In this document: positions 2,342 to 31,874 of the stretch, piece by piece
How positions within the stretch are numbered: the stretch's first letter is position 1
How the letters are laid out: each line of letters opens with the position of its first letter
Source: Bacteroidota bacterium
GTDB taxonomy: Bacteria > Bacteroidota > Ignavibacteria > Kryptoniales > JAKASW01
DNA length: 33,140 nucleotides
Reading direction: 5' to 3'
NCBI GenBank assembly: GCA_021845665.1
Contig: JAJZVO010000049.1
Span: forward strand, 1 to 33,140
Notes under the pieces: model-generated
The model's database searches: none
Told to the model about the DNA's origin: nothing
Seen by the model: the letters and a program-made list of their open reading frames with translations, nothing else
Program-made: the position numbers and the translations under genes

Positions 2342-3571
2342 TTAATCAAGTAGAGGTGAAGCGACAAATTCCTCTATAAGCGGGACCACAGAACCGAGCG
2401 CACTCGCACTGCCGCCCAGCTCACTGAAGACGATCCCCACAGACTTGCGGGCGACCTCGAGAGCCTGTCTCTTCAATACATCCTTGACGGGATCGAGAAT
2501 GAGGTTGCCTGCCCGGACCAGGTCACCGCCGATGATGATAAGCTCGGGGTTAAGAAGATTCACAAGACTGACGACGCCCTCACCTAAGTATCGTCCGACA
2601 TCGGTGAACAGTTTGTAAGCCAGCTTATCTTCCCTTTTCGCCGCTTCGATAAGAGTCGTGAAGGTGATTGCGCTCAATGAGCCGCCCGCAATTTCCTGGA
2701 TCGCGGATGAAACTCCGTCCACCAGCGCCTTCCTCGCACTTTCGATAATGGCCGGTATACTTATGAACGTCTCAAGGCAACCGACGTTGCCGCATGTGCA
2801 AACCGGACCGTGGTCGTCTACCGTAATATGTCCGAATTCACCCGCCGTGCCGGATGTTCCGGTATAGAGCCTGCCGTTAATTACAATTCCTCCGCCGACT
2901 CCATCTGTGACACTCAGATAAAGAAAGTTCGTCTTGCCGCGGCCAAGGCCGTACCACGATTCGCCAAGCACGGCAGCGGCCGCGAGATTATGAACAAAAA
3001 CCTTGAGCCCGAGCTCTTTCTCCAACACCTCCTTAAGAGGAACACTCCCCCAGTTCGGGAGATGAGAAAGGATCGCAACACTCCCATCATTGGGATTGAC
3101 AAGCCCAGCCGCACCGACACCTATACCGCGGAACTTTGCATCTTTTCCTTTGAAGATACCGATCAGCTCTCTTGCTCCCTGAACCAGAAGAGCAAGGAAT
3201 CCGTCTTTCCCTATCTTCTTGTCGAACGGTATCCTCTTCTGCGTCAGCACATCCCCTCCCAGATCGGACACGATGAAAAGGATCTCGTCTTTACGTGCTT
3301 CTATTCCTATGACATACCGATAAGTCGAATTACACTTGTAAAGCGCCGCTGGGCGTCCGCCGTTAGCGGATGATTCGTCGCTCCGCCGGATAATCCCCCT
3401 TTTCTCCAAACCCGAGACAACTGACGTCACGGTGGCAAAGCTCAGACCGGCTGTCCGTGAGATTTCTCTCTGCGTAATGGGACCATTATGAAAGATATTT
3501 GTGAAGATTGCTGAGGCCGTGTATTGACGGGATAGCGGGGAGAGATGGGTGCCGGTTATTTTCTTCGCCAC
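2342..3571 (-). CDS. ROK-family transcriptional repressor (NagC/XylR type)
   Basis: A 409-residue DNA-binding sugar sensor. Residues 10-65 form a MarR-like winged helix-turn-helix (ITQREISRTAGLSFATVTSVVSGLEKRGII). The ROK sugar-binding fold follows, with the zinc motif at 245-266: H248 in GEFGH, then C258, C260 and C265 in CTCGNVGCLE. The position that carries the catalytic Asp in ROK kinases (ENDANAAA) reads HNLAAAA at 194-200, so kinase activity is not expected and a pure regulator is. The start is GTG at 3571 with AAAGG 5 nt upstream. It lies 13 nt before the TonB receptor gene and is divergent from the amino-sugar operon, which it most likely controls. The effector is inferred to be GlcNAc, GlcNAc-6-P or a relative. 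Confidence 0.93.
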   Translation of the reverse strand: MAKKITGTHLSPLSRQYTASAIFTNIFHNGPITQREISRTAGLSFATVTSVVSGLEKRGIIRRSDESSANGGRPAALYKCNSTYRYVIGIEARKDEILFIVSDLGGDVLTQKRIPFDKKIGKDGFLALLVQGARELIGIFKGKDAKFRGIGVGAAGLVNPNDGSVAILSHLPNWGSVPLKEVLEKELGLKVFVHNLAAAAVLGESWYGLGRGKTNFLYLSVTDGVGGGIVINGRLYTGTSGTAGEFGHITVDDHGPVCTCGNVGCLETFISIPAIIESARKALVDGVSSAIQEIAGGSLSAITFTTLIEAAKREDKLAYKLFTDVGRYLGEGVVSLVNLLNPELIIIGGDLVRAGNLILDPVKDVLKRQALEVARKSVGIVFSELGGSASALGSVVPLIEEFVASPLLD

Positions 3572-3626
3572 AATTACCTTTCAGGATAGGCTGTTTCTGG
3601 TGCGATGTTATTTCATAGAGTGTAAT

Positions 3627-3655
3627 AGTATACGGCCTTGATTCCTGTTTGTCAA
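3627..3655 (-). promoter_or_regulatory. Sigma-70-type promoter of the ROK/TonB operon
   Basis: On the minus strand, TTGACA (3655-3650) is followed by a 17-nt spacer and TATACT (3632-3627), 11 of 12 bases matching the consensus. Transcription would begin near 3620, giving a leader of about 50 nt before the GTG at 3571. Confidence 0.7.
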
Positions 3656-3679
3656 GGGTGTAATTTAAAATTGTAAAAT
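3649..3679 (+). promoter_or_regulatory. Possible promoter of the amino-sugar operon
   Basis: On the plus strand, TTGTCA (3649-3654) lies 19 nt before TAAAAT (3674-3679). The -35 is essentially the same bases as the minus-strand -35. The spacer is longer than ideal, so this is tentative. If it is used, the leader is about 290 nt and contains the repeats described for this intergenic region. Confidence 0.3.
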
Positions 3680-3730
3680 AAGTCCGACAGCCGTCAGGCT
3701 TAAATGGTTCAGGCTCGAATCTTCGCTTCT

Positions 3731-3748
3731 CTTCCTGGTTACAGGAAG
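3731..3748. repeat. Inverted repeat, candidate operator or leader hairpin
   Basis: CTTCCTG and CAGGAAG are exact 7-bp reverse complements separated by GTTA. The repeat lies in the ROK/amino-sugar divergent region, downstream of the possible plus-strand promoter. It could be a protein-binding site or an RNA hairpin. Confidence 0.4.
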
Positions 3749-3978
3749 GAGTTTGAAATATTGGGGTTTCTTCCTACCTCAGTCAAGAATTGGTACCACT
3801 GGCCTGGACCAGCCGATGCATGACATCTAATAGTCCTAAGGAAATATTCAAGGGACCAGCCGTGCCTCTACTTTCTGGCGAAAGGAAAATTACCGCAGCT
3901 TCCCGCAATTGGATCGAAGCTGAAAAGAATCGCGGAGAGATGTCGGTTTAGAAACTGAGAGCGAAAAACGAGTCTCCA

Positions 3979-4707
3979 TTGGAACCTGAATCAAACATAT
4001 CTGCATTTCATGACTCACCTTCCGCAGCGGAGTCTCATGATAATCCGTTCGTCTATAAAGTCAAACGGATCGCTCATCTCGTGCCCATCGAGTGCGGGCA
4101 GACTGAGGATAAGTGGATCACCGTAGAGCCGTTGAAGATTAACCAAGCTAACTCATGGCAAATGAAATTCAGACCTCAAACCACGGTTAAGCTCTGTTAC
4201 GACGAAGAATTTATTCGCCTGATGTACATCGTAAGGGACAAATATGTCCGTTGTTTGACGACCGAGCCAAACGGTCCGGTCCACAAAGATTCTTGTGTCG
4301 AGTTTTTCTTTTCACCTTTCGTGGACACTCCGCGTGATTATTTCAATCTCGAAATCAACTGTTGCGGAACAATAAAACTTGGGTACAAAAGCGTACTGCG
4401 AGCGACTTCCGTTCATGCGAAAGAAGAAGACCTGAAGAGGATTTTGATACGTCACTCCCTGACCGGCACAATTCAGGAAGAGATCACGCAGCGAGTTGAA
4501 TGGACACTCGAAGTCGCGCTCCCATTCGATGTCGTGAGAAAATATTGTCCCATTGGCGTGCCGGGTGCCGGAACGAGATGGAGAGCCAACTTCTATAAAT
4601 GCGCAGAGGACAATTCGCATCCCCACTGGCTGAGCTGGGCACCGATAATTTCTGCACGGCCAGATTTTCACCTCCCGCAATTCTTCGGGGAAATGGAATT
4701 CTGTTGA
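3979..4707 (+). CDS. CBM9-like carbohydrate-binding domain protein
   Basis: A 242-residue protein made almost wholly of one CBM9/DOMON-like beta-sandwich domain (about 25-240). Recognisable signature stretches are VKLCYDEEFIRLMYIV, KDSCVEFFFSP, YFNLEINCCGTIKLGY and WRANFYKCAEDNSHPHWLSW. There is no signal peptide or lipobox, so as read it would be cytoplasmic, which is odd for a carbohydrate-binding module. The start is TTG at 3979, the only start-like codon shortly before the domain besides a CTG at 3955; no good ribosome-binding site is seen. An in-frame TAG at 3949-3951 blocks longer forms. It is the first gene of the amino-sugar operon, 69 nt before the symporter. Its substrate cannot be read from sequence. 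Confidence 0.8.
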   Translation: MEPESNISAFHDSPSAAESHDNPFVYKVKRIAHLVPIECGQTEDKWITVEPLKINQANSWQMKFRPQTTVKLCYDEEFIRLMYIVRDKYVRCLTTEPNGPVHKDSCVEFFFSPFVDTPRDYFNLEINCCGTIKLGYKSVLRATSVHAKEEDLKRILIRHSLTGTIQEEITQRVEWTLEVALPFDVVRKYCPIGVPGAGTRWRANFYKCAEDNSHPHWLSWAPIISARPDFHLPQFFGEMEFC

Positions 4708-4776
4708 ACTCTCACCTGTTATTTTGCTGATGCAGTTTGCCCTTATTTTTCCGCACGGATCATCGGAACCTCATAG

Positions 4777-6273
4777 ATGAAATTTCCTGATTACGTTGTA
4801 GTCGTCGTTTTCTTCGGTTTGATGGTGCTGATAGGGTTCTATTCTTCGCGGAAAGTGAAGACCGCCAGCGACTTCTTCGTCGCCGGCGGTAAGGTCCCCT
4901 GGTGGCTCGCTGGAATTTCGCATCACGTATCGGGATACAGCGGCGTCGTATTCGTTGCGTTCGCGGGCGTCGCCTACACTTATGGATTTACAATTTACGT
5001 CTGGTGGGCGTTCGCGATATCCATCGCAGTGATAACCGGAGCTTACCTTATAGCTCCAAGATGGTCTAGGCTCCGACAAAACCTGAACATCAGTTCGCCA
5101 ACCGAGTATCTCCAGGTGAGGTATGGACTCCCCACTCAGCTGCTGACCGCTTTCAGCGGTACTGCTCTGAAGCTGTTCGATGTCGCCGCGAAGTGGGCAT
5201 CGATCGGTATACTGTTGAATGTTTTCACTGGGCTGCCGGTGATCGCCGGGGCGACGATGACCGCAGCGATAGCTCTCCTTTATACTACAATCGGTGGACT
5301 CTGGGCAGACCTGTATACCGACTTCGTGCAATTCCTCATTCAACTCGTAGCCGGTGTATTAATGTTCATAACTGTAGTCGGAAAGTTGGGAGGGATAGGA
5401 AGCATATCCGGCATGTGGTCCCGTTTGCCTAAAGGCCACGGAAGCTTGTTCAACGGCCCTTACACTTTCGCGTTCTTCATGGCATATATGCTAATGTCTT
5501 CATTCAGCTATAACGGCGGAACATGGAGTCTCGCTACCAGATATATCGCTTCACCTAACGCAGCGAGCGCAAAGAAATCCGGACTTCTTTCGGGCATGCT
5601 TTATTTGATTTGGCCTTTGATTCTTTTCTTCCCAATGTGGGCCGCTCCGATCTTCCTGCCCAAACTGGCTGACCCCACGGATGCTTACGCCTTGATGGTC
5701 AGGAAATTACTCCCCGCCGGACTTGTGGGTCTGGTACTGGCGGGAATATTCTCCGCCACACTATCGATGGTCACTTCCGACGCAAATACGGTCTCTGCCG
5801 TTATAACTAGAGATATAATACCCTTCATATCCGGGAGATTCAGAGGACTGAATCCCAAGAAAGAACTAAGACTCGCAAGGGTAACTACATTCACATTCGT
5901 GTTCATGACTCTAATAATAACGGCCTTCTACAAGGATTTCGGGGGAGTTATCGGACTGATCGTAGTGTGGTTCGGCGCGCTCGTCGGCCCCACCGCGGTT
6001 CCCATGATTCTGGGTTTGATACCACGCTTCAAACATAGCGGCTCGAAGGCTGCGATTTCATCCATACTGACCGGAGTTGCCGTATTCGTTCTGATGAAGG
6101 TCATAAGCTATCAAGCAAGCCAGGCCTTGGTACTCGCAGCGCCGACGATAGCTTCCATCCTGGTGTACTTAAGTATGGGATTCCTCGATAGAAATGGAGA
6201 AGTGCCTGAGAGTGTGGAGCGTCTGCTCGGTGAGCTCTCGATGTCAAATGTGAATAGCGCGAACGACAAGTGA
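4777..6273 (+). CDS. Sodium:solute symporter (SSS family) for sugar
   Basis: A 498-residue inner-membrane secondary transporter with about 13 hydrophobic segments, the usual length for the SSS/SLC5 family. Family hallmarks include SDFFVAGGKVPWWLAGISHHVSGYSG near residues 31-56, the GGLWADLYTDFVQF stretch near 172-185, and a Na+-site-like segment SATLSMVTSDANTVSAVI near 325-342. The start is ATG at 4777 with GGAA about 10 nt upstream. It sits between the CBM9-like gene and the epimerase, so it probably imports an N-acetyl-hexosamine or sialic-acid-like sugar in unphosphorylated form. Substrate specificity is inferred from the neighbours only. Confidence 0.92.
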   Translation: MKFPDYVVVVVFFGLMVLIGFYSSRKVKTASDFFVAGGKVPWWLAGISHHVSGYSGVVFVAFAGVAYTYGFTIYVWWAFAISIAVITGAYLIAPRWSRLRQNLNISSPTEYLQVRYGLPTQLLTAFSGTALKLFDVAAKWASIGILLNVFTGLPVIAGATMTAAIALLYTTIGGLWADLYTDFVQFLIQLVAGVLMFITVVGKLGGIGSISGMWSRLPKGHGSLFNGPYTFAFFMAYMLMSSFSYNGGTWSLATRYIASPNAASAKKSGLLSGMLYLIWPLILFFPMWAAPIFLPKLADPTDAYALMVRKLLPAGLVGLVLAGIFSATLSMVTSDANTVSAVITRDIIPFISGRFRGLNPKKELRLARVTTFTFVFMTLIITAFYKDFGGVIGLIVVWFGALVGPTAVPMILGLIPRFKHSGSKAAISSILTGVAVFVLMKVISYQASQALVLAAPTIASILVYLSMGFLDRNGEVPESVERLLGELSMSNVNSANDK

Positions 6274-6306
6274 CCAACGCGAATATTCTACTCGGAGATT
6301 TGAAAA

Positions 6307-7581
6307 TTGGATTTTAGATGGAACGACACGACAGATCTCAGGAATTTCTATAAAGATCTGTTACAAAACAATTTCTACAGATTCTGGAACAAAGCCGTCG
6401 ACAGGCAGAACGGCGGAATATTCAATTGCTTCAACAATGCCGGGACCGAACTGGTCAGTGGAAACAAGTACACCTGGTCACAGGGAAGGTTCGTTTGGAT
6501 ATGGAGCAAACTCTACTCGTTGTCAAAGAGACGGATGTTATCACTCGATCTGAATGATTTGCAGGAAGATCTCGAGAGGACTGTCGGCTTCCTCGAGAAA
6601 AATGTCTTCATGAACAACGGCAACTGCGTCTTCCTCACGGACGAAAAGGGCAACTGGCTTGAAAGTATCCCCGGAAAGGGTTTTGACACCAGTTTCTACG
6701 CGGACTGCTTCGTCGCTCTCGGTTTTTCGGAATACGCGAGGGTATTCAAAAACAAACATTATGCGGATCTCGCGTTCAAAATTTACAGGCATACTACAGA
6801 AAGGCTTCACCAGGAAGGGCTCAGGAGCGATCCCTATCCGATTCCAAAGGGATATAGGTTCCATTCGGTCCCTATGATCATGCTGAATGTCAGCGAAGAA
6901 CTAACGCTCACCCTCAGGACGCTGGACGACGACAGGGACGAGGAGGTCGATAAAGAAAGTTGCGGCTACATGAGCGAAGTGATGGAGGATTTCTACAACG
7001 AAAACGAGGGAAGGATTATCGAAGTCGTTGGTCCCGACGCGGTTTCCCGCGGCAGCGTCCTGTGCCGCCACGTCAACCCGGGTCACGCGATTGAAGACAT
7101 GTGGTTCGTGATGAGCCTGGCAAAGAGGAAAAACCGGCCGGACTATATCGGGAAGGCCGCGAGTGCAGTCAAGTCGGCGATAAGAACCGGGTGGGATAGT
7201 GAATTCGGAGGGCTGTTCAGGTTCAGCGACGCGACGGGAGGAGAGCCGAAGGGGACAAAGACCGGCGACCCGTACGAGAAGCTTATATTGGATACATGGG
7301 ACACAAAGCTCTGGTGGCCGCATTCGGAGATGCTTTACACCACGCTGCTCGCATATGCTCTTACGAAAGACCAGGAGTTCGTATCGCTGTACAAAATGGC
7401 GCACGAGTATGTGTTTAGAACCTTCCCCGACATCGAGAACAATACTGGAGAATGGGTACAGATAAGAGACAGAGCCGGGAAACCCATCGAGAAAGTAGTC
7501 GCACTCCCGGTAAAGGATCCTTATCATATCATGAGGAACATTGCTTTAATCATAGAATTATTGGGACAGAACCAGCTATAA
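6307..7581 (+). CDS. N-acylglucosamine 2-epimerase (AGE/RenBP) family protein
   Basis: A 424-residue (alpha/alpha)6-barrel enzyme expected in the cytoplasm, interconverting N-acyl-mannosamine and N-acyl-glucosamine. The family's two key histidines appear to be H260 in VNPGHAIEDMWF and H339 in TKLWWPHSEMLYTTLLAY; WSQGRFVWIWSKLY near 57-70 is also typical. The start is TTG at 6307, because the next in-frame Met is residue 79, well inside the fold; GGAG lies about 10 nt upstream. It is 33 nt after the symporter and 22 nt before nagA. The same superfamily contains cellobiose/mannobiose epimerases, but the NagA/NagB context favours an N-acetyl-hexosamine substrate. Confidence 0.88.
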   Translation: MDFRWNDTTDLRNFYKDLLQNNFYRFWNKAVDRQNGGIFNCFNNAGTELVSGNKYTWSQGRFVWIWSKLYSLSKRRMLSLDLNDLQEDLERTVGFLEKNVFMNNGNCVFLTDEKGNWLESIPGKGFDTSFYADCFVALGFSEYARVFKNKHYADLAFKIYRHTTERLHQEGLRSDPYPIPKGYRFHSVPMIMLNVSEELTLTLRTLDDDRDEEVDKESCGYMSEVMEDFYNENEGRIIEVVGPDAVSRGSVLCRHVNPGHAIEDMWFVMSLAKRKNRPDYIGKAASAVKSAIRTGWDSEFGGLFRFSDATGGEPKGTKTGDPYEKLILDTWDTKLWWPHSEMLYTTLLAYALTKDQEFVSLYKMAHEYVFRTFPDIENNTGEWVQIRDRAGKPIEKVVALPVKDPYHIMRNIALIIELLGQNQL

Positions 7582-7603
7582 ATATCTCATTTCGGAAACA
7601 GGT

Positions 7604-8944
7604 ATGCAGGACAAAATAGTTATAAAGAACGGATCGGTCCTTCTTCCTCATGGGTTGAAGGACACAGACATCGAATTGAGTGGTGGGATTATTTCACGCA
7701 TCGAACCTCGGATTTCGGCCGGCGCGGCCGCGACCGTAATCGACGCTGGCGAAAAGTTTGTAATTCCGGGGTTCATCGACGTACATACGAACGGCATCGC
7801 CGGATTTGATCTCACACTCGGGACCTACGACCAGGCAAATGACAGCTTCACTTCCGACGAAGAAATATATTTGAGCGGGTTAGATAATGCGCTCGGGCGA
7901 TATGCCTGTACGGGGGTCACCCGCGCAGTTCTCACGAGCCTCGCATCGCCGGCTCAAGATCTGAAAAAGGCCTTCGGATACGTGAGCAGGTACCGTGACA
8001 ACTATCGCGAGCGAGCGTGGAGCGCAGTATTAGCCGGGCTTTACGTAGAAGGCACTTTTATGAAAGAGGCGGGTTACCGCGGCGCTCATAACGCGGACTA
8101 CTTCAATGTACCTTCAAAGGAGCTGTTCGATGAGCTGCAAATGGCCGCCGGCGGCATGATAAAGATAGTTAACGTGGTCCCGGAATGGGGAGCGCCTGCC
8201 CTCAAGCTTATTAAATACCTCACCGCGAAAGGCATCATATGCGCGGCGGGGCACACAGGCGCCACGGGATATCAGTATTCACTGGCGATTAACCAGGGAA
8301 CGTGTCTGGCGACTCATTTTCTAAATGGACCCACCGGGTCGTCGGTGAAACCGTTCGATGGTGGAGGTGCAGCGGAGAGAGTGCTTCGTGCCGACCAGGT
8401 GTTTGCCGAAATTATCGCGGACGGCTACCACGTCGACAAGGCATACGTGATGGACGCCATAAAAAGAAAAGGCACCGACAAGGTGGTCGTGATTACAGAC
8501 AGCATGTTCCCCACGATGCTCGAAGGATTGGACAAATTCTCGATGCTGGGGGTCGAAGGGAGAGTAAGTTCGAACGGTGAGTACCTGCAAATCGCAGACA
8601 GGGGTAACGCTCTCTTCGGAAGCACACTGACGATGGACAAGGCATTCTCCAACATCCTGAATTGGCTGACCTCACCCGTAGAAGGTATCTGGTACAAGAT
8701 GCATGAGCCTCTCAATTTCGAAGAGGCACTTCTGAAGGCGTCGGAGATGTGCAGCGGTAACCCGGCCAGGGTGATCGGAATATTGGGACCCACTACCACA
8801 GTCGATCCGAAGGATATGAGCTGCTATACAGGGAGCATCGAAACTGGAAAGAGTGCCGATGTGCTGATCGCGGATATCACGGGAATTCAAGGCGATCGGA
8901 AGGTGAAGATCGAGAGGGCTTTTGTCAACGGACAGCCTGTCTGA
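7604..8944 (+). CDS. nagA: N-acetylglucosamine-6-phosphate deacetylase
   Basis: Removes acetate from GlcNAc-6-P to give glucosamine-6-P; an amidohydrolase-superfamily TIM barrel of 446 residues, longer than the roughly 380 of E. coli NagA because of an insertion around 68-95. Visible active-site elements are PGFIDVHTNG (H61, N63), E149 in LYVEGTF, H217 in GHTGAT, H238 in THFLNG, IIADGYHVD (H276) and the catalytic D299 in VVITDSM. The first metal site reads H-x-N, intermediate between the two-metal H-x-H and the E. coli Q-x-N forms. The start is ATG at 7604. It is 22 nt after the epimerase gene and 47 nt before nagB. Confidence 0.9.
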   Translation: MQDKIVIKNGSVLLPHGLKDTDIELSGGIISRIEPRISAGAAATVIDAGEKFVIPGFIDVHTNGIAGFDLTLGTYDQANDSFTSDEEIYLSGLDNALGRYACTGVTRAVLTSLASPAQDLKKAFGYVSRYRDNYRERAWSAVLAGLYVEGTFMKEAGYRGAHNADYFNVPSKELFDELQMAAGGMIKIVNVVPEWGAPALKLIKYLTAKGIICAAGHTGATGYQYSLAINQGTCLATHFLNGPTGSSVKPFDGGGAAERVLRADQVFAEIIADGYHVDKAYVMDAIKRKGTDKVVVITDSMFPTMLEGLDKFSMLGVEGRVSSNGEYLQIADRGNALFGSTLTMDKAFSNILNWLTSPVEGIWYKMHEPLNFEEALLKASEMCSGNPARVIGILGPTTTVDPKDMSCYTGSIETGKSADVLIADITGIQGDRKVKIERAFVNGQPV

Positions 8945-8991
8945 AAACACACAGTTCCACTGAGCAACCACACGAACCGGAGAATTACAAA

Positions 8992-9771
8992 TTGAAATCT
9001 GAAAGCACAGTATCAACTTTCAAAATCGATGAGCTTAACGTAGAGGTGTACAGAGACCGAAAAACTATGGGAGCGCGAGCGGCGTCAGCTGTTGCTGAAA
9101 AGCTGAAGAGCATACTATCATCAGGAAAGAATGTGCGAATGATATTCGCCGCCGCTCCTTCCCAGAACGAATTGCTCGACGCGTTAGTCTCGACTCCCGG
9201 AATCGATTGGTCCAAAGTAACGGCATTCCACATGGATGAATATGTCGGTCTGAAAGCCGGTGCTACCCAATCGTTTGGTGTTTTCTTAAGAGACAGGATT
9301 TTCGGGAAGGTAAAATTCGGGAAAGTCCATTACATAAGTTCGAATCCCGGCGATATCGATCATGAATGCGAGAGTTATTCCGAACTCCTTGCTGCGGCGC
9401 CAATAGACATTGTTTGTCTTGGGATAGGAGAGAACGGACATATCGCTTTCAACGACCCTGATGTCGCGGACTTCAATGATCCGAAGAGAGTTAAAGTCGT
9501 AGACCTCGATCACAAATCGAGACAGCAACAGGTAAACGACGGCTGTTTCTCCTCATTTGAGGAAGTGCCCAAGAGGGCGATCACCCTGACTATTCCGGCC
9601 CTGACTTCGTCTCGTTACATGTATGCAGTAGTCCCCGGCAAGACTAAGGCGGACGCTGTCCACCGCACGATCAAGGGCGAGATAACTGCCGCTTGTCCCG
9701 CTACGATCCTTCGGCGACACAACAACGCGATGCTGTTCCTCGATGCCGACTCCGCAGCTGAGATCGAGTGA
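8992..9771 (+). CDS. nagB: Glucosamine-6-phosphate deaminase
   Basis: Converts glucosamine-6-P to fructose-6-P and ammonia, the last step of the amino-sugar route. It has 259 residues, the normal length. Signatures are FHMDEYVGL (D82-E83, equivalent to catalytic D72 of the E. coli enzyme) and GIGENGHIAFNDP (144-156, with H150). Where E. coli has Asp141 this protein has Asn148 (GENGH), a form found in other members of the wider family. The start is TTG at 8992 with GGAG about 10 nt upstream; the next in-frame Met is residue 26, inside the fold. It is the last gene of the plus-strand operon, followed by convergent HAD genes. Confidence 0.92.
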   Translation: MKSESTVSTFKIDELNVEVYRDRKTMGARAASAVAEKLKSILSSGKNVRMIFAAAPSQNELLDALVSTPGIDWSKVTAFHMDEYVGLKAGATQSFGVFLRDRIFGKVKFGKVHYISSNPGDIDHECESYSELLAAAPIDIVCLGIGENGHIAFNDPDVADFNDPKRVKVVDLDHKSRQQQVNDGCFSSFEEVPKRAITLTIPALTSSRYMYAVVPGKTKADAVHRTIKGEITAACPATILRRHNNAMLFLDADSAAEIE

Positions 9772-12947: not shown

Positions 12948-13624
12948 TGAAATACCTTTCTCTTCATGTTTATAATTGCTCACGGCATACTAATCCTCTT
13001 TCTCGACACCGTTCTTCAGCATATGACGCATCGGCGGCCGGACAGCTCGCGCAGGTCATCCTATGGAACAATACATGCCGGCTGAAACTCGACGACCACC
13101 AACACCATTAGAAATGCCAACGGAACCGGTCAACTGTTCGTTCCATATTCAGTATGGGCCAGAAGCGACATCAAGCAGAAAGAAGTCTGAAAAGGTCACC
13201 GATTCAGATATTGAAGTCCGGTCTAACATCTCAGCAGATCTTTCGGGGAAGTTCAATCGAATGGCCGCGACTTTGAAATCAACTCCCAGAGAGTCGTGCA
13301 AATTCTTATCATGTACAGGAGAATACGAACACTCAGCCATCGCCTTGGCAAAAGAGAGCTGATGTGTCTTGCCTATGGTGTAGTTCCGTTATCTCAAGTA
13401 CTTGAAATCCGCTTTTGCTCCAGGTCATCGGTCCGCGATCCCACATTCTTCCTTCAACGCCGATATCCGCCGTGAGAGCTCATTTCCCGGGGCATTACTT
13501 GAAATCAAATGCAGAAATGTTGATTTTTATGGCTTCCATCGGTAAATTGAACCGTTCAATTTTTTTCTTGAAATTTCAATTTCGTAAGCGACAGGTGCGT
13601 TAGGAGGTAAATCCGGAGAGATTG
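12948..13624. other. Divergent intergenic region upstream of lacI-type gene
   Basis: About 677 bp between the lipoprotein and LacI-type genes. A 99-codon open frame at 13063-13362 has no ribosome-binding site, no recognisable motif and an unusual Ser/Arg/Thr-rich composition, so I treat it as chance. The right third is rich in TTGAA/TTCAA palindromes: TCAAGTACTTGA at 13394-13405, the 19-bp palindrome at 13544-13562, and TTGAAATTTCAA at 13568-13579. Confidence 0.6.
13520..13562 (+). promoter_or_regulatory. Promoter with overlapping palindromic operator, lacI-type gene
   Basis: TTGATT (13520-13525), a 17-nt spacer and TAAATT (13543-13548) form a plausible sigma-70 promoter. A perfect palindrome, AAATTGAAC-C-GTTCAATTT (13544-13562), overlaps the -10 and would cover the start of transcription. 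Its TTGAAcCG/TTCAA core resembles the site in front of the sugar-acid operon (31833-31846), although here the centre is one base shorter. Autoregulation by the LacI-type protein is inferred. Confidence 0.55.
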
Positions 13625-14659
13625 ATGAAGAGAATTACTATCGAGGATGTTGCGCGACGTGCGGGGGTTTCAAAGGGAACCGTTTCCGCCGTCATCAATG
13701 CCAAGAGTACGGTGAAACCGGGTACGAGAGATCATATTCTGGAAGTAATGAAGGAACTCAACTTCCGGCCGCGAGGGGTCGCAAGGAATTTAAAGAACGG
13801 TTCACAGGACAAGAGCATAGCGATTATCATCAAAGACCTGAACTATCCCTTCTACACTGCGATCGCCACGGGTGCAAAAGATTATGCGAGCACAAAAGGC
13901 TACTCGGTCATCATCACGAGCTCCGACGACAATCACGAGCGCGAGAAGAAACTCTCGCATTTGTTCTCTACAAAAGACATCAAGGGAACTATCATAGCCC
14001 CGGTAGTCGAGGGAACCGCAGAGATCGAACATCTTTTCAAATTGAAGATGATCAACTATCCTTTCGTTCTTCTCGAGGATGTAAAGGGAATCCAGGCGAA
14101 CGTAGTTGCGATCGACAACCTCAGGGCGATAAAGAAAGCCGTGAAGTACCTGATACAAGGCGGACACACGAAGATCGTTCATTTTGCCGGTCCGCCTCAG
14201 TCATCTCACACCCAGGAACGCATCGAGGGTTTCCGCGACGCCTTCAGCGAAAGTACTCTCGCCTTCAACCACGAGATGATCGTCTCGATCGGATCTCATT
14301 ATGAGGAGAGTTACGCCAAGACAATAGAGTATTTCAAGAAGATTGACAGGAGCCAGTACCCGACCGCAGTGGTCTGTTTCAACGACCATCAGGCGCTTGC
14401 GGTCATGACGGCTTTGAAAGATCTTCACATTGCCGTGCCTGGCGATATATCTATCATCGGGAACGACGATATTTACTACGCGCAGATTTATCCAATTCCG
14501 CTTACAACGATCAGGGCGCCGCAAGACGAAATCGGCAAGACTGCAGCCGAAATTCTCATCCGCAACATCGAGTCGTCCACCCTTCTCCCGATCGAGCGCG
14601 TCGTCCTCGATACCGAGTTTGTCGTCAGAGAATCGTCCAGGGTGCTGAACGGCGACTGA
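13625..14659 (+). CDS. LacI/GalR-family transcriptional regulator
   Basis: A 344-residue repressor-type DNA-binding protein. The N-terminal helix-turn-helix is TIEDVARRAGVSKGTVSAVIN (about 4-24), with the hinge helix at RGVARNLKNG (about 49-58), followed by a periplasmic-binding-protein-like sensor domain to the C-terminus (IAIIIKDLNYPFYTAIATGA, then IIGNDDIYYAQIYPIPLTTIR). The start is ATG at 13625 with GGAG about 7 nt upstream; a TTG directly before it would add one residue. The gene stands alone. Operator similarity suggests it controls itself and the sugar-acid operon at 24830-31522; the effector is unknown but probably a sugar acid or an intermediate of its breakdown. Confidence 0.93.
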   Translation: MKRITIEDVARRAGVSKGTVSAVINAKSTVKPGTRDHILEVMKELNFRPRGVARNLKNGSQDKSIAIIIKDLNYPFYTAIATGAKDYASTKGYSVIITSSDDNHEREKKLSHLFSTKDIKGTIIAPVVEGTAEIEHLFKLKMINYPFVLLEDVKGIQANVVAIDNLRAIKKAVKYLIQGGHTKIVHFAGPPQSSHTQERIEGFRDAFSESTLAFNHEMIVSIGSHYEESYAKTIEYFKKIDRSQYPTAVVCFNDHQALAVMTALKDLHIAVPGDISIIGNDDIYYAQIYPIPLTTIRAPQDEIGKTAAEILIRNIESSTLLPIERVVLDTEFVVRESSRVLNGD

Positions 14660-24803: not shown

Positions 24804-24830
24804 ATCGGACCCTCTCCCGAAGTTTCCGAT
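24804..24830 (-). terminator. Stem-loop between convergent uxuA and aldehyde dehydrogenase genes
   Basis: ATCGGA (24804-24809) and TCCGAT (24825-24830) are exact reverse complements directly at the stop codon of the aldehyde dehydrogenase gene; on the minus strand ATATTTC follows. It is probably the 3' end signal of the sugar-acid operon and may serve both strands. Confidence 0.35.
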
Positions 24831-26416
24831 CACAAAACTGAATTCGATATCCTCCCATTGAGTAGTCTGAAAATACCCAATGGATTCTTGTCCTTAAGCT
24901 CATCCGGAAGCACCTCGCCGGGAAAGTCCTGGTAGCACACCGGCCTCGCGAACCGCTCGATGGCGCGAGTGCCAACCGAGGTGGTCCGGCTGTCCGTAGT
25001 TGCGGGAAACGGTCCGCCGTGTACCATGGAATGACAGACTTCTACTCCCGTCGGGAAACCGTTTATGATAAGCCGTCCCGCCTTCCGCTCCAGTATGGAA
25101 ACGAGTTCGGCGTGTTCCTTAAGATCTTCCGCCGTCGCGTGGAGCGTGACTGTGAGATGTCCCTTTAGACTCTCCGCTATTTTCAATAGTTCCGACTCGC
25201 CATCTGCGGCGACCGTCAGCGTCGACGGACCAAAATTCTCCTCTTCAAGATGCCGGTCGTTCAGAAAGTCTCTTGCATCCGTGTTCAGAAGGTAAGCGAC
25301 TCCATCAAGAGCCGTTCCTTCAGGCTTGCCCTTTGCAAGGAGTCGAACTCCATTATGCCTGGTAAGGCTCTCAACTCCCTTCTTGTAAGCGGCGTTGATG
25401 CTCTCGGTCAGCATGGGGCCGGCAGCGACCTTGCCGAACTCCACTGCCGCCGCTTCCTGGAATCTCTTTGCCTCTTCGGACGAGCGATAAAACACGAGTC
25501 CCGGATTCGTGCAGAACTGGCCGACGCCCAGCGTTACAGACGCCGTCAGCCCCTTCGCGATCTCGCTCCCTCTCTCCCGGAGTGCATGTGGAAGGACAAA
25601 CACGGGATTGCTGCTTCCCGTCTCGGCGTAGACAGGTATCGGCTCCGGCCTTCGGACCGCGGCATCATAGATAGCTTTGCCTCCTCTGAAGGAGCCGGTA
25701 AATCCTATCGCCTTGATTAGCGGGTGTACCACGATGCCCATTCCAACCCTCGTAGATCGGCCGTGGAGCATCGAGAATGTGCCGTCGGGCATGCCAGTCT
25801 TTTGGACGGCTTTCACTATCGCGGCGCCGACCATCTCGCAAGTTCCAGGATGCGCCGGGTGCGCCTTGAATACTACCGGGCAGCCTGCCGCGAGCGCTGA
25901 TGCTGTGTCGCCGCCCGCTACCGAAAACGCGAACGGGAAATTGCTCGCGCCGAATACTCCTACCGGCCCGAGAGGCTTGAGCATGCTCCTGATGTCCGGC
26001 TTCGGCGCCGGTTTTCTCGAGGGATCCCCGGTGTCTATTCTCGCGTCGACCCATGAGCCTTCCCTCAAAAGCTCGGCAAACAACTTCAACTGGCCGACAG
26101 TCCTACCCCTTTCCCCTGCCAGTCTCCCTTCGGGTAACCCTGTCTCCATACTGCATCTTTTTATGAGCTGGTCGCCGAGAGAAACGATCTCTTCCGCGAT
26201 CGCTTCGAGAAAGAACGCCTTTTCTTTTCCGGCTTTCTTACCGTAGACTCCGAATGCGCTCTCGGCTTTCTTTATTGCCAGTTCAATCTCGGTGTCGTCG
26301 GCCTCATGAAATTCCGGTGAAATCGATTCGTTGATGGAGGGATCAACGGCTTTGAAGACTTCTTTTCCTTCGCCCGACAATTCATTCCCGATGAAGTTGT
26401 TTCCTGAAAGGTTCAT
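24830..26416 (-). CDS. Alpha-ketoglutaric semialdehyde dehydrogenase (ALDH family)
   Basis: Oxidises 2,5-dioxopentanoate (alpha-ketoglutaric semialdehyde) to 2-oxoglutarate, the last Weimberg step. It has 528 residues, the longer length of the type III KGSADH group. FGASNFPFAFSVAGGDTASAL (155-175) and FKAHPAHPGT (183-192, with K184) are characteristic. The general-base Glu is E265 in YAETGSSNP and the nucleophile C302 in GVGQFCTNPG. The start is ATG at 26416, one base after the stop codon of the FAH-family gene (TGAGATG), so the two are translationally linked. Other aldehyde substrates are possible, but the dehydratase partners make this assignment strong. Confidence 0.9.
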   Translation of the reverse strand: MNLSGNNFIGNELSGEGKEVFKAVDPSINESISPEFHEADDTEIELAIKKAESAFGVYGKKAGKEKAFFLEAIAEEIVSLGDQLIKRCSMETGLPEGRLAGERGRTVGQLKLFAELLREGSWVDARIDTGDPSRKPAPKPDIRSMLKPLGPVGVFGASNFPFAFSVAGGDTASALAAGCPVVFKAHPAHPGTCEMVGAAIVKAVQKTGMPDGTFSMLHGRSTRVGMGIVVHPLIKAIGFTGSFRGGKAIYDAAVRRPEPIPVYAETGSSNPVFVLPHALRERGSEIAKGLTASVTLGVGQFCTNPGLVFYRSSEEAKRFQEAAAVEFGKVAAGPMLTESINAAYKKGVESLTRHNGVRLLAKGKPEGTALDGVAYLLNTDARDFLNDRHLEEENFGPSTLTVAADGESELLKIAESLKGHLTVTLHATAEDLKEHAELVSILERKAGRLIINGFPTGVEVCHSMVHGGPFPATTDSRTTSVGTRAIERFARPVCYQDFPGEVLPDELKDKNPLGIFRLLNGRISNSVL

Positions 26417-26417
26417 C

Positions 26418-27242
26418 TCATTCCACCTTGTTCTTCAGTGTTCCGATCGGCTGAATGGTAATGTTTATTTCATCGCCGCTCTTCAGTGTGAAATCGCTTG
26501 ATGGTACGATCCCCGTTCCTGTCATGAGAAGGCTGCCGTGAGGGAAAGAGCACTCGCGATACAGGAACGAGACAAGTTGCGTAAGTTCTCTCTTGATCTG
26601 GCTTATCTCCGTGCTTCCTGTAAATACGCTGGAACCGCTTCTTTTGATATCGAGTTCGATGGTCGTCGTCTTGGGCAGCGGGTCTTCAGTCACGTAAATC
26701 CAGGGTCCAATCGCTGCGCAGCCGTCGTAGGTCTTGGCCTGCGGAAGATACAGCGGGTTTTCTCCTTCGATGCTTCTCGAACTCATATCGTTGCCGATAG
26801 TATAACCGACGATCTTCCCGGAAGACGTAATCATCAGCGTGAGTTCGGGTTCCGGGACGTTCCATGTCGAGTCCCTGCGGATTCTCACTTTCGCGCCGTG
26901 ACCGACTATCCTATGCGGCGTCGATTTGAAAAACAGTTCCGGCCGTTCGGCCTCGTAAACATGAGCGTAGTAGTCGCCTCCGCCGGTCTTCTTCGACTCT
27001 TCCTGCCGTCCCTGCTTGCTCCTGAAATACGTCACGCCGCTCGCCCATAGCTCCTGGGATTGGACGGGAGGAAGGAGATTGTCCGGCATCCTGTCGGTGG
27101 GGAGCATCGACTGTACCACGTTCTTTATCTTACGGTACAGATCATCGTCGTTGACGAATCTGTCCCAGGCCTCATTTTTCAAAAAGAAGAACCGGCTATC
27201 ATCTTCGACGAAAATGCCGGTGGTAGTTTTATATAGTCGCAT
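26418..27242 (-). CDS. FAH-family 2-keto-3-deoxy-pentonate dehydratase
   Basis: Fumarylacetoacetate-hydrolase-fold enzyme of about 274 residues, resembling 2-dehydro-3-deoxy-D-arabinonate/D-xylonate dehydratase, which turns the keto-deoxy acid into alpha-ketoglutaric semialdehyde. Diagnostic stretches are [48 protein letters not shown] (metal-binding Glu pair), [24 protein letters not shown] and a C-terminal LMTGTGIVP. The start is probably ATG 27242; GTG 27251 in the same frame would add three residues. It lies 71 nt after the IlvD-type gene and 1 nt before the aldehyde dehydrogenase gene. Confidence 0.88.
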
Positions 27243-27313
27243 CGTTCTCACGTTCGGTTGTTTGCGGTCTGTGTAAATCCGTTTCGATCTGAGTCATCAG
27301 TGTGGAATCGATA

Positions 27314-29035
27314 TCAGTGTAAATCACCCTTAACTTGGGATTCGGACTTTCCTGCGAGTATATCGAGGTCCGCGCCCTGGTCGGCCTGCTGGACGTGATC
27401 GAGATATATCTTGACATATCCCCTCTCCGCGGCCGGCTTCGGCGGCTTCCAGGTGGCGCGTCGTCTGCTAAGCTCTTCATCCGGAACATCAAGATGGAGT
27501 CTGCGGCTGGCGACGTCGAGTTCTATCATGTCACCATCGCGGACGAGTGCGAGAGTGCCGCCGATTGCGGACTCAGGCGAAATGTGGAGTACGACGGTAC
27601 CGTATGCGGTTCCGCTCATCCTGCCGTCCGAAATCCTCACCATGTCCTTCACGCCGCTCTTGATCAGCTTCACCGGTAGATCGACATTTCCCACTTCCGG
27701 CATTCCCGGATAACCCTTCGGGCCGACACTTTTCAGTACAATCACACAATTGTCATCTATATCGAGATCCGGAAGGTCAATCCTCTTGTGATAATCTTCC
27801 ATGCTCTCGAAGACAACGGCTCTCCCGCGATGCTTCATCAACCTGGGCGTGGCCGCAGACGGTTTTATCACTGCACCGTTCTCGCACAGGTTGCCTTTCA
27901 AAACTGCGATGCCGGCCTCCGTCTGAAAAGGTTTGTCGAGCGTGGCAATGACGTCCCGGTTATAACATTTGGCATTCGCACTGTTTTCGGTCAGCGATTT
28001 GCCGTTGGCAGTGACGACGTCTTTGTGAAGCAATCCTTCGAGCTCCTTCAGCACTACCGGCAACCCACCGGCGTAGAAGAAGTCCTCCATCAAATATTTT
28101 CCCGAAGGCATGAGGTTGACGAGGAGAGGAATCTTACTGCCGAGCGCGTCGAAATCTTCCAGTTTCACTTCGACGCCGATCCTGTTTGCAATGGCAATCA
28201 TGTGTATCAGCAAGTTTGTAGAACCTCCGACTGCCGCATTCACGATAATTGCATTCTCAAAAGCCTTTCTCGTCAATATTCTGGACGGCTTTAGATCTTC
28301 TTTCACCATCTCGACGATCCTGCGTCCCGAAAGCTGTGCCATCATATTCTTCCGGGAGTCTACGGCGGGTATGGATGAGAAGCCGGGGAGGGTGAGCCCG
28401 AGCGCCTCTACCATCGTCGCCATGGTTGATGCGGTACCCATCGTGTTGCAGTGGCCCGCGCTTCTTGCGGCGCAGACCTCCGCCTCCTGCAAATCCGAAG
28501 CGGACCAGCCTTCGTTTGTCTGCTTCTCTTTTATCATCCAGTTAAATGAACCTGAGCCGATCGTCCCTCCTCTGAATCTTCCAGTCAGCATCGGTCCGCC
28601 TGGAACGACGATTGTCGGGAGATCGACGCTGCATGCGCCCATCACAGTCGACGGCGTGGTTTTATCGCAGCCCGTCAGAAGGACTACGCCGTCCAGCGGA
28701 TTCGCGCGTATCGACTCCTCGACGTCCATGCTCGCGAGATTCCGGAAAAGCATTGTCGTCGGACGCATGATGGTCTCGCCTAAAGACATCACGGGGAATT
28801 CGAACGGTACGCCGCCCGCTTCGAGTATACCGCGCCGCACTATTTCGGCAAATTCCCTGAGGTGGCCGTTACAGGGAGTCAGCTCCGACCATGTGTTACA
28901 GATACCGATTACCGGACGGCCGCTGAAATAATCGTCGGGATATCCCTGGTTTCTCAGCCACGATCTGTGAACGAACCCCATTTTGTCGGAGCCTGCGAAC
29001 CATTCGCGGCTCCTCAGTTTCGCTTCGGTTTTCAT
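27314..29035 (-). CDS. IlvD/Edd-family sugar-acid (pentonate) dehydratase
   Basis: A [2Fe-2S] Mg-dependent dehydratase of the L-arabinonate/D-xylonate dehydratase branch, removing water from an aldonate to give a 2-keto-3-deoxy acid. It has 573 residues from ATG 29035. Cluster cysteines are C55 (ELTPCNGH), C123 (LTGCDKTTPS) and C196 (GHCNTMGTASTM); the spacing 68 and 73 matches characterised sugar-acid dehydratases, and K125 in CDKTT is the usual metal-site lysine. The frame is open to 29101, but ATG 29035 has GAGGAG upstream and fits the family N-terminus (LRSREWF). True IlvD (branched-chain) function is less likely in this operon. Which aldonate it uses is not settled. Confidence 0.9.
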   Translation of the reverse strand: MKTEAKLRSREWFAGSDKMGFVHRSWLRNQGYPDDYFSGRPVIGICNTWSELTPCNGHLREFAEIVRRGILEAGGVPFEFPVMSLGETIMRPTTMLFRNLASMDVEESIRANPLDGVVLLTGCDKTTPSTVMGACSVDLPTIVVPGGPMLTGRFRGGTIGSGSFNWMIKEKQTNEGWSASDLQEAEVCAARSAGHCNTMGTASTMATMVEALGLTLPGFSSIPAVDSRKNMMAQLSGRRIVEMVKEDLKPSRILTRKAFENAIIVNAAVGGSTNLLIHMIAIANRIGVEVKLEDFDALGSKIPLLVNLMPSGKYLMEDFFYAGGLPVVLKELEGLLHKDVVTANGKSLTENSANAKCYNRDVIATLDKPFQTEAGIAVLKGNLCENGAVIKPSAATPRLMKHRGRAVVFESMEDYHKRIDLPDLDIDDNCVIVLKSVGPKGYPGMPEVGNVDLPVKLIKSGVKDMVRISDGRMSGTAYGTVVLHISPESAIGGTLALVRDGDMIELDVASRRLHLDVPDEELSRRRATWKPPKPAAERGYVKIYLDHVQQADQGADLDILAGKSESQVKGDLH

Positions 29036-29117
29036 TTGTTCTTCTGCTCCTCTCAAAATGGAAAGGAAAAATGCGCCTCCTTTCCACTTCAGCTTAAACA
29101 AGAAACGGCTATTTGCT

Positions 29118-30419
29118 TCAGACCATTTTGAACTCTTTTATTTCAGGAACGAGCAGGTGGATAATGAATAATGCCAACAGATAGACGCAGCCGGCTATTA
29201 TGAAGAGAGGTAAGTAGCTTCCGGTGAACTGCAGAACGAAGCCTGCTACTCCGGCAATCAACACCCCGCCGATTGCTCCGGCCATCCCGCCGAGGCCCAC
29301 GATGGAGCCGACGGCCCTCTTGGGAAACATATCGGAAGCAGTGGTAAACAGGTTTGCCGACCAGCTCTGGTGCGAGGCTGCGGCGAGTCCAATCAGCACC
29401 ACGGCCCACCATTCAGGAACGGAAGCGGCGAACACTATCGGCACGATCAAGACTGCGCTGAGCAGCATGGTCGCTTTTCTTCCCTTGTTGATGCTCCAGC
29501 CTCTCTTGATGAATGCGCCGGACATCCAGCCGCCGCCGATGCTACCTGCGGTCACCATCGTGTATATCACTATGAGTGGGAAACCAAGATGGGCAAGATC
29601 AAGATGGTACCTTTGATTGAGAAAACTCGGGAGCCAGTATAGATAGAACCACCAGATCGGATCCGTAAGAAACTTTCCGATGACGAACGCCCATGATTGC
29701 CTGTACTTGAGAAGCTTCAACCATGGAACCTTCTCCGCAGGCGGCTCCGGTGGATCGCTCTGTATGTATGCCACCTCGGCCTTGCCGACTCTTTTCTGCT
29801 TTTCAGGAATTTCATAGAACCACAACCAGAGCGCGAGCGCAATGAACCCGAGCAGTCCCGTAAAGATGAACGCTTCACGCCAGCTCCACGTCAGCGTTAT
29901 CCATGGAACCAGAATCAGAGCGACAATGGTACCGACGTTTGGTCCGGAATTAAACAGGCCAGTCGCGAGAGCTCTCTCTTTCTTGGGAAACCATTCGGCG
30001 GTTGCCTTGATCGCCGCGGGAAAGTTTCCTGATTCTCCCAAACCCAGTGCAAACCTCGCTGCTCCGAATTCGAAAGGAGTCCCGGCAAAAGCGTGTCCCG
30101 CTGCAGAGATGCTCCAAACTACCATCGAAACCGAATATCCCTTCTTGGTCCCGATCCAATCTATGAACCTCCCGACAAACAGAAGCCCAATTGCGTATGC
30201 GCCCGTGAAAGCAGCTATGATGTAGCCGTAGTCTATCTGGTTCCACCCGATACTCTTCTGAAGTACCGGCGCGAGTATGCCGAGTACCGCTCTGTCTATG
30301 TAGTTTATCGTCGTCGCGAGAAAAAGGAGGCCGCAGACGACCCACCGGTAATAACCCGATCTGGCACCTGCAGCGAGATCCGGGGTGCTTCCATCGAATT
30401 CAGGAATACTGTTTCCCAT
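29118..30419 (-). CDS. MFS transporter, hexuronate/anion-cation symporter type
   Basis: A 433-residue inner-membrane transporter with 12 predicted helices. It belongs to the ACS branch (ExuT, GarP, gluconate/glucarate porters): RWVVCGLLFLATTINYIDRAVLGILAP in helix 1, GYIIAAFTGAYAIGLLFVGRFIDWIGTKKGY, FALGLGESGNFPAAIKATAEWFPKKERALATGLFNSG in helices 4-5 and GSIGGGWMSGAFIKRGWS later. It should import a sugar acid with protons. The start is ATG 30419. It lies 35 nt after the UroD-like gene and about 82 nt before the IlvD-type start. Aldonates, hexuronates and aldarates are all possible substrates. Confidence 0.92.
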   Translation of the reverse strand: MGNSIPEFDGSTPDLAAGARSGYYRWVVCGLLFLATTINYIDRAVLGILAPVLQKSIGWNQIDYGYIIAAFTGAYAIGLLFVGRFIDWIGTKKGYSVSMVVWSISAAGHAFAGTPFEFGAARFALGLGESGNFPAAIKATAEWFPKKERALATGLFNSGPNVGTIVALILVPWITLTWSWREAFIFTGLLGFIALALWLWFYEIPEKQKRVGKAEVAYIQSDPPEPPAEKVPWLKLLKYRQSWAFVIGKFLTDPIWWFYLYWLPSFLNQRYHLDLAHLGFPLIVIYTMVTAGSIGGGWMSGAFIKRGWSINKGRKATMLLSAVLIVPIVFAASVPEWWAVVLIGLAAASHQSWSANLFTTASDMFPKRAVGSIVGLGGMAGAIGGVLIAGVAGFVLQFTGSYLPLFIIAGCVYLLALFIIHLLVPEIKEFKMV

Positions 30420-30454: not shown

Positions 30455-31522
30455 TTATTTGATTCTGAAGGTACGGCCCGCATTCATGAAGGCCAGTACG
30501 TTCTCATCGGGCGTTTCCTGCGGGAGATCGCACCCCGTGCTGAGCACGAAATTAGGATAATCTCTCATTTTCTCAAGAAGATCACGGACGTCCTTCTCTA
30601 CCTTCTCAGGTGTTCCGCAGAGTATCGAGCCGGTGGGATTCAAATTGCCGATAAGAATAATGTCTTCAGGAGTCCTTTCGGCAACAAGCCTGAGATCGAC
30701 TCCCGCCTCCGGCGAGTCGACGCTGAGAGCGTCTACCCCCGAGCGGGCCATCGATTCTATGAGGTGCATCGAATTGCCGCAAACATGATATACCGTCGAA
30801 ACATCCGTTTCCGAGCAGCTTTCGCACAGATGACTCACATACATTCCGGAAAACTCATCGAACTGTTCCGGACCGAGCATTACCGCGCTCGGCTCCAGGA
30901 CACAAATGATCTGCGCGCCTGCAGCAATAAGGAGCCTTAGATACTGTTGGATCTTTGAAGTCGCGAAGCTGCATACTTCATGAAGCATCTCCGCATTGGC
31001 AACTGTGGATGATGCGGCTTCCTCCGCCCCCATGAGAAGTGCCGCGAGCGTATAAGGACCTGTTACATACGCGCCTCTGAGCATGCCGGAAGGAAATCCA
31101 ATGCTCATCAGTTTCAGCGTCTCGACATACCCGAGAAGCCGTGCGTCGAACGAAATGTTGACCCGTTCCGCCGCTTCCAGATCTTCAGGCCGAAACTCGT
31201 CACGCACCACCGTAGCAGATTCTCCCTTCGGAAAGACGGTGTATCTTCCTATCGCATTTGCCTCAACAGAAAGGTCCATCATCGGGAAAACGACATCCGG
31301 GTGATATCTCTCCGCAATTGCTTTCAACACCTTGAAATGCTCGCCGTAGTTTTGCTGTGCAAGCTTCACAGAACAACCGATAAGATTCAATCCGGGAAAC
31401 CCAATCAAAGGAACAACCAGCCTCCGTCCTTCATAAAATGCCTTACGGACCATTTCAGGAAACGGCTTCCCCGTGACTGCAGCTGTCCTGCCTCGTTCCT
31501 GTTCGGAAAGTGCCACCGTCAT
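30455..31522 (-). CDS. UroD/MtaA-like methyltransferase-family protein
   Basis: A 355-residue TIM-barrel protein of the uroporphyrinogen decarboxylase family. It has the zinc triad of the cobamide methyltransferase branch (MtaA/MtbA type): H246 and C248 in YHVCGNS, C331 in STGCDLPQETP; the Arg-rich N-terminus of true haem-pathway UroD is not apparent. Family stretches include YVTGPYTLAALLMG, VDALSVDSPEAGVDL and LIGNLNPTGSILCGTPEKVEKDV. A methyl transfer to or from a corrinoid or thiol is therefore more likely than porphyrin decarboxylation, but no corrinoid protein is nearby. It is the first gene of the sugar-acid operon; the ATG (31522) lacks a ribosome-binding site and overlaps the TGA of a short leader frame. 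Confidence 0.88.
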   Translation of the reverse strand: MTVALSEQERGRTAAVTGKPFPEMVRKAFYEGRRLVVPLIGFPGLNLIGCSVKLAQQNYGEHFKVLKAIAERYHPDVVFPMMDLSVEANAIGRYTVFPKGESATVVRDEFRPEDLEAAERVNISFDARLLGYVETLKLMSIGFPSGMLRGAYVTGPYTLAALLMGAEEAASSTVANAEMLHEVCSFATSKIQQYLRLLIAAGAQIICVLEPSAVMLGPEQFDEFSGMYVSHLCESCSETDVSTVYHVCGNSMHLIESMARSGVDALSVDSPEAGVDLRLVAERTPEDIILIGNLNPTGSILCGTPEKVEKDVRDLLEKMRDYPNFVLSTGCDLPQETPDENVLAFMNAGRTFRIK

Positions 31523-31731
31523 CCTGGGAACACGATTTTCAAAATCTGAACCAGCTGCACCGGCGCGGATCGAAATCCGGACTCATCGACATTTGCTCCT
31601 CCCTTATCTGATGATATACCTGCCGGTATTCGCACCGATGGATGTGACCGACGGTTTTCGCCGAGCACAAATTGAGGGAGCGAGCCTGAAGCGGAATCGT
31701 GACGGAAGCGACGATAGAGGAGCTTTCTCAT
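31519..31731 (-). other. Possible 70-codon leader reading frame coupled to the UroD-like gene
   Basis: The frame runs from ATG 31731 (MRKLLYRRF...) to a TGA overlapping the downstream ATG (ATGA at 31522-31519). It sits in the about 317-nt leader after the predicted promoter. The sequence is Arg/Ser/Pro-rich without motifs, and AAGGG is 13 nt upstream. Coupling would explain the missing ribosome-binding site of the UroD-like gene, but chance is quite possible. Confidence 0.25.
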
Positions 31732-31810
31732 GATAAATGCATGCCCTTTTTCTTCGCCTATTACTTATGCCCTGACAATGCGAAGCTTTGATTTGTCTAG
31801 GAAGTGCCCG

Positions 31811-31846
31811 TTTATTCGGTTCAAGAAAATAGTTGAACCGATTCAA
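31811..31846 (-). promoter_or_regulatory. Two LacI-type operators before the sugar-acid operon
   Basis: TTGAACCGATTCAA (31833-31846) is a 14-bp near-palindrome with TTGAA/TTCAA half-sites around a central CG, the standard form of a LacI-family site. A second, TTTATTCGGTTCAA (31811-31824), differs at two bases, and its centre is 22 bp away, two helical turns. The sites also form a 9-bp inverted repeat with each other (TCGGTTCAA/TTGAACCGA). The first one touches the -10 box. Confidence 0.65.
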
Positions 31847-31874
31847 TATTACAAAGAATACGTCAGCATGTCAA
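31846..31874 (-). promoter_or_regulatory. Sigma-70-type promoter of the sugar-acid operon
   Basis: On the minus strand, TTGACA (31874-31869), a 17-nt spacer and TAATAT (31851-31846). Transcription would start near 31839, inside the operator at 31833-31846, so binding would block initiation. The leader to the UroD-like gene is about 317 nt. Confidence 0.65.

Follow-up and report, generated by a model that had tools for sequence, protein, structure and literature searches.

The DNA analysed here, a window of 33,140 nucleotides, carries a gene for a LacI-family regulator and, on the other strand, a sugar-acid operon whose promoter contains a palindrome resembling the one before the regulator gene. 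This raises the question whether the regulator is an autoregulated repressor that also controls the operon, 18 kb away, as a sequence-only reading of the window had proposed.

Paired sites at two promoters

The promoter of the sugar-acid operon lies on the minus strand and, by sequence reading, consists of a -35 element TTGACA (31869-31874) and, after a 17-bp spacer, a -10 element TAATAT (31846-31851). Abutting the -10 element is the predicted promoter-proximal operator TTGAATCGGTTCAA (31833-31846, minus strand), a 14-bp even palindrome with a central CG that shares one base with TAATAT, and exactly 22 bp downstream of it is a predicted distal operator (TTGAACCG; TTGAACCGAATAAA at 31824-31811, minus strand), which is well kept only in the half facing the proximal site. 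Direct reading therefore bears out two parts of the earlier description, i.e., a TTGACA-17-TAATAT promoter whose -10 is overlapped by an operator and a second related site exactly 22 bp further on. As an even palindrome with a central CG that is conserved at orthologous promoters, TTGAATCGGTTCAA has the form of a LacI-family operator.

The regulator gene (13622-14659, plus strand; alternative ATG at 13625) encodes a protein of 345 aa whose family membership is supported by matches to PF00356 (HTH; E=8e-17) and PF13377 (periplasmic-binding-like ligand domain; E=9e-33) and whose recognition helix reads VSKGTVSAVIN. Its promoter has a TTGATT -35 element (13520-13525), a 17-bp spacer and a TAAATT -10 element (13543-13548), followed by the predicted proximal operator TTGAACCGTTCAA (13547-13559), all on the plus strand. 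The two window promoters had been said to share the same layout; they are similar but not identical, since lacI has a 13-mer of odd spacing whose half-sites (TTGAA-N3-TTCAA) stand one base closer together than those at the sugar-acid promoter (TTGAA-N4-TTCAA). The sequence-only reading had overlooked a second predicted palindrome, TTGAAATTTCAA (13568-13579, plus strand), 21 bp beyond TTGAACCGTTCAA, and lacI thus has paired sites too. TTGAAATTTCAA has lost the central CG and sits where a full 14-mer, TTAAACCGTTTCAA, stands in most orthologues of this LacI protein. In sister species, the proximal site of the lacI promoters is partial and a full TTAAACCGTTTCAA-like 14-mer follows ~20 bp further, which is the reverse of the proximal/distal order at target promoters. 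Both sites are altered in the window species and in the sister closest to it. Because its own lacI operators are atypical (a 13-mer and a distal site without the central CG), the window species offers a weaker case for autoregulation than its relatives do.

We considered whether the pair at 31811-31846 could have arisen by chance or be no more than a feature of the promoter. Allowing three mismatches, the window has 5 copies of the degenerate palindrome where 6.8 are expected, a lack of enrichment that speaks for chance, and since the bare motif is at chance level the significance rests on the exact palindrome together with the promoter. The 42-bp composite of promoter and operator gave no matches in 100 shuffles of the window, and in the 4.64-Mb genome it gave exactly five at three or fewer mismatches (C4:29415, C4:50837, C30:37368, C44:31833, which is the window promoter, and C54:9403). 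The reversed control yielded no composite and no copy of the exact palindrome TTRAAHCGDTTYAA, of which the genome has six. All five composite matches lay on minus strands, and a strand artifact was suspected, but the reverse-complement pattern returned the same five sites. The motif is retained at the orthologous operons of sister genomes, where the composite promoter is likewise conserved. The proposed genome scan thus yielded few and specific matches, all of them in front of carbohydrate operons, and there is next to no likelihood that the pair arose by chance or reflects the promoter alone.

When half-site scores were averaged over 21 target promoters from the genus, the maximum fell exactly 20 bp away from the proximal site. 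A second half-site stands at exactly +20 in 18 of these promoters and at 21-22 in the window operon and its two orthologues. The distal site of target promoters retains mainly the half toward the proximal site, and the second site falls at a multiple of the helical repeat, as in tandem operators. Tandem LacI sites are established at 21-22 bp, with a peak at 22, and have been interpreted as cooperative binding (PMC4052901). The earlier proposal of a 22-bp pair on one DNA face therefore holds as to the two-turn spacing, but 22 bp is not typical, the norm in this genus being 20 bp.

Probable assignment of the operators to the window LacI

If the window LacI reads these operators, they should recur before its own orthologues. 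We trained a position matrix on target-promoter sites only and scored 260 bp upstream of 48 orthologues drawn from Ignavibacteria, Kryptoniota, KSB1 and related MAGs, using a threshold of at least 13 bits. Such a site was present upstream of 36 of the 48 (0.7% in shuffles), in 27 cases at -36 to -65, and the remaining 12 had no scored site upstream. The motif thus stands before the regulator gene as expected of an autoregulated regulon, the window copy being atypical. The recognition helix VSKGTVSAVIN is nearly invariant across 47 orthologues.

The genome encodes four full-length LacI proteins, and motifs of this family resemble one another, so the sites might instead be operators of another member (on C75 or C72), the likeness to the lacI promoter being coincidence or cross-talk. 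Yet none of the 13 upstream regions of paralogous LacI genes examined contains the motif, compared with the 36/48 for orthologues (Fisher p=8e-7), and orthologues of the window LacI often adjoin target genes. The paralogue at C72:78370 lies, from its neighbors' translations, in an apparent uronate/KDG cluster and is probably the local regulator there. Site number in the genus also follows the window-LacI orthologue: genomes that have it contain 6, 6, 3, 3, 2, 2, 2, 2, and 1 exact sites, and those without it 0, 0, 0, and 1 (Mann-Whitney p=0.004). We consider control by another LacI protein very unlikely.

Single genomes illustrate this pattern and its exceptions. In G003 (C53:9589), which has no LacI orthologue, the orthologous promoter is kept, with the operator half-sites one base too far apart; the operon there is without the UROD-like gene. 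In the related genome G011, which has a LacI orthologue, the composite promoter was not found. Matches in G002 and G007 (TTTCATCGGTTTAAG...) were set aside as off the operator consensus, as were matches in three further genomes (TCGAAGCGCTTTAA), which adjoin other LacI genes. The TCGAAGCGCTTTAA motif occurs there with the same promoter geometry beside another LacI gene (G033:C272, G051:C477, G060:C1) and is probably a separate autoregulated LacI system.

On the evidence of genome specificity, orthologue sites, tracking across the genus and the xylose and TonB genes behind the site (described below), the window LacI very probably represses both its own gene and a xylan/xylose regulon in the Kryptoniota/Ignavibacteria lineage. 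The prediction that the motif would be present in related genomes, at orthologous operons and before LacI orthologues, held, and the idea of an autoregulated repressor that also controls an operon 18 kb away is supported, with binding itself predicted from sequence.

The predicted xylan/xylose regulon and its corrinoid module

The window promoter precedes five genes (31522-24830, minus strand). The first (30455-31522) encodes a UROD-family, MtaA/CmuA-type methyltransferase-like protein of 355 aa, and is followed by genes for an MFS transporter of the galactonate/hexuronate type (29118-30419), an IlvD/EDD-family sugar-acid dehydratase (27314-29101) that scores high, just below the cut-off, with an L-arabinonate dehydratase model, a fumarylacetoacetate hydrolase (FAH)-family protein (26418-27251), and an aldehyde dehydrogenase (24830-26416) whose best matches are 2,5-dioxovalerate dehydrogenase models, below their cut-off. 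The first protein carries HVCG and STGCDLPQETP motifs, and its closest solved structure is a methylcobalamin:CoM methyltransferase (4ay7), for which reasons methyl transfer is a likelier function for it than that of HemE. The window also contains an amino-sugar-type cluster (2342-9771) with a NagC-like ROK regulator and, by translation, an SSS transporter, an AGE-like epimerase, and NagA and NagB homologues.

The five composite promoters are nearly identical and, that of the window operon included, all face carbohydrate operons. On contig C4, one of the two (C4a) precedes genes for a GH3 enzyme, an MFS_2 symporter, a TonB receptor, and a T9SS protein, and the other (C4b) a TonB receptor, a T9SS protein, and a glucuronoyl esterase; the C30 promoter precedes MFS_2, TonB, and T9SS protein genes, and the C54 promoter genes for a T9SS protein and a TonB receptor, with GH43 and an XylR/AraC-type gene as neighbors. 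Contig C4 further holds GH10, GH30, GH9, and an arabinofuranosidase C-terminal domain, and the best solved relative of the target GH3 is a beta-xylosidase (E=1.6e-200). The MFS_2 symporter on C4 is only 197 aa long in this genome (C4, 7897-8490 and 4473-7925) versus 473 aa in the sister genome G012, probably owing to a frameshift or assembly error.

In relatives, the site lies upstream of xylose isomerase (XylA equivalog TIGR02630, above cut-off), GH3 beta-xylosidase-like, and TonB-receptor genes, and GH115 and GH43 genes adjoin lacI. Having TIGR02630 xylA and GH3 downstream of its sites, the regulator has the xylose/xylan targets of a XylR-type repressor. A convincing site was sought at xylA of the window genome and none was found, and this gene was rejected as a direct target. 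More than two operons belong to the predicted regulon, which is concerned with xylan/xylose.

Target leaders measure ~290-470 nt, which is unusual for LacI targets and counts against the model; that of the sugar-acid operon extends ~290 nt up to the first ATG (31523-31810, minus strand). A shared RNA element was dropped as an explanation for the long leaders, since an Rfam search of the window, this leader included, gave no match and the leaders of different targets in the genome are dissimilar. A leader peptide was also rejected, the frame of the small ORF in the sugar-acid operon leader not being kept in the sister species.

The sixth exact palindrome (C4:10689) lies 73 bp upstream of a gene for a corrinoid protein (C4:9951-10616; B12-binding, B12-binding_2), after which come a homocysteine S-methyltransferase-like frame, a protein with a Met_synt_B12 reactivation domain, and a second UROD-like protein. 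This module (C4 7151-10616, minus strand), part of the xylan locus, recurs in Ignavibacteria beside lacI, GH115, and GH43, and its homocysteine methyltransferase is confirmed by Pfam in a relative (PF02574). In G012, it is directly upstream of the orthologue of the window operon, among orthologues of the C4 GH10, GH30, and GH9 genes. Corrinoid proteins of this type (at least 51% identity) are present in 8/9 genus members with the LacI orthologue and in 0/4 of those lacking it.

GH115 enzymes free 4-O-methylglucuronate from xylan, which makes B12-dependent demethylation of this sugar acid the natural hypothesis, and the module is a candidate 4-O-methylglucuronate demethylase. In such a route, a GH115 alpha-glucuronidase would yield 4-O-methylglucuronate from xylan, a UROD-type methyltransferase would pass its methyl group to the dedicated corrinoid protein, the homocysteine S-methyltransferase would transfer the corrinoid-borne methyl to form methionine, and the MetH-type reactivation protein would repair the corrinoid cofactor; the window operon, whose first gene also encodes an MtaA-type methyltransferase, would process the demethylated sugar acid. 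Only tentatively, and as something short of an even chance, do we suggest that the regulon encodes every step of a corrinoid-dependent O-demethylation of a methylated sugar. In the literature searched, corrinoid O-demethylases have aromatic methoxyl groups as their substrates, and none for 4-O-methylglucuronate demethylation was described in the open-licence papers searched. The module points to a possible anaerobic route for this demethylation, a step in hardwood xylan breakdown.

Proposed switch and comparison with known systems

The computed results are the sites themselves, the fact that they are specific genome-wide, conserved, and found before lacI orthologues, and the link of the genes behind them to xylan. 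With good confidence, we propose that a xylan/xylose-responsive LacI represses its own gene, the sugar-acid operon, and other xylan operons through paired dimers at -10/+1. A LacI dimer would bind TTRAAHCGDTTYAA at the -10/+1 region of strong promoters, and a second would take the weaker site 20-22 bp downstream, two helical turns away on the same DNA face; the two-turn spacing suggests that the dimers cooperate. When xylan sugars are absent, the two adjacent dimers would cover the DNA from the -10 to ~25 bp past the start point and exclude RNA polymerase. The targets in the window would be the sugar-acid operon (31522-24830) and, via the related pair at 13547-13579, lacI itself, which would keep its own level limited; elsewhere in the genome, four or five xylan-utilization operons would be repressed. 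A xylan-derived sugar would release the repressor, and the likely inducer is xylose or a xylo-oligosaccharide. Binding, repression over activation, cooperativity, and the inducer are what we infer here.

The regulon spans at least five loci, its regulator is not adjacent to all of its targets, and some LacI proteins are global (PMC4052901), all of which could instead reflect a protein with a mainly activating role or a global catabolite-type regulator like CcpA/PckR. We regard this as unlikely, given that the sites occupy the -10/+1 region and the DNA immediately after it, a placement in which a protein blocks polymerase, and that nearly all targets are xylan or pentose genes. Under the preferred reading of a local xylan repressor, a regulator, an operator, and a substrate are assigned in Kryptoniota/Ignavibacteria, a lineage known mainly from uncultured genomes, and the motif can be used for wholesale annotation of xylan regulons there.

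The operator switch is of a known kind, and the xylan regulon appears to be undescribed. E. coli LacI, of the same family, likewise has an operator at the promoter and more than one operator (O1/O2/O3), whereas the second site here is two turns away, without a loop spanning tens to hundreds of base pairs of DNA. Caulobacter crescentus XylR is a LacI-type repressor of xylXABCD and xylE (cited in PMC8625115), and the likeness is functional: an oxidative sugar-acid operon under a LacI-type repressor, with xylan-degrading genes and receptors co-induced on xylose. Unlike that system, the regulon here adds GH3/GH115 clusters, xylose isomerase in relatives, and the corrinoid methyltransferase module. 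Tandem-operator LacI regulons such as those of RafR and ScrR (Ravcheev et al. 2014, PMC4052901) share the even palindrome with a central CG, autoregulation, a sugar regulon, and paired sites whose two-turn spacing suggests two cooperating dimers; neither Ignavibacteria nor Kryptoniota is among the phyla that the survey lists. Compared with those systems, the sites here are 20 bp apart (22 bp at the window operon), and in targets the distal site keeps its inner half alone, whereas at lacI it is usually full.
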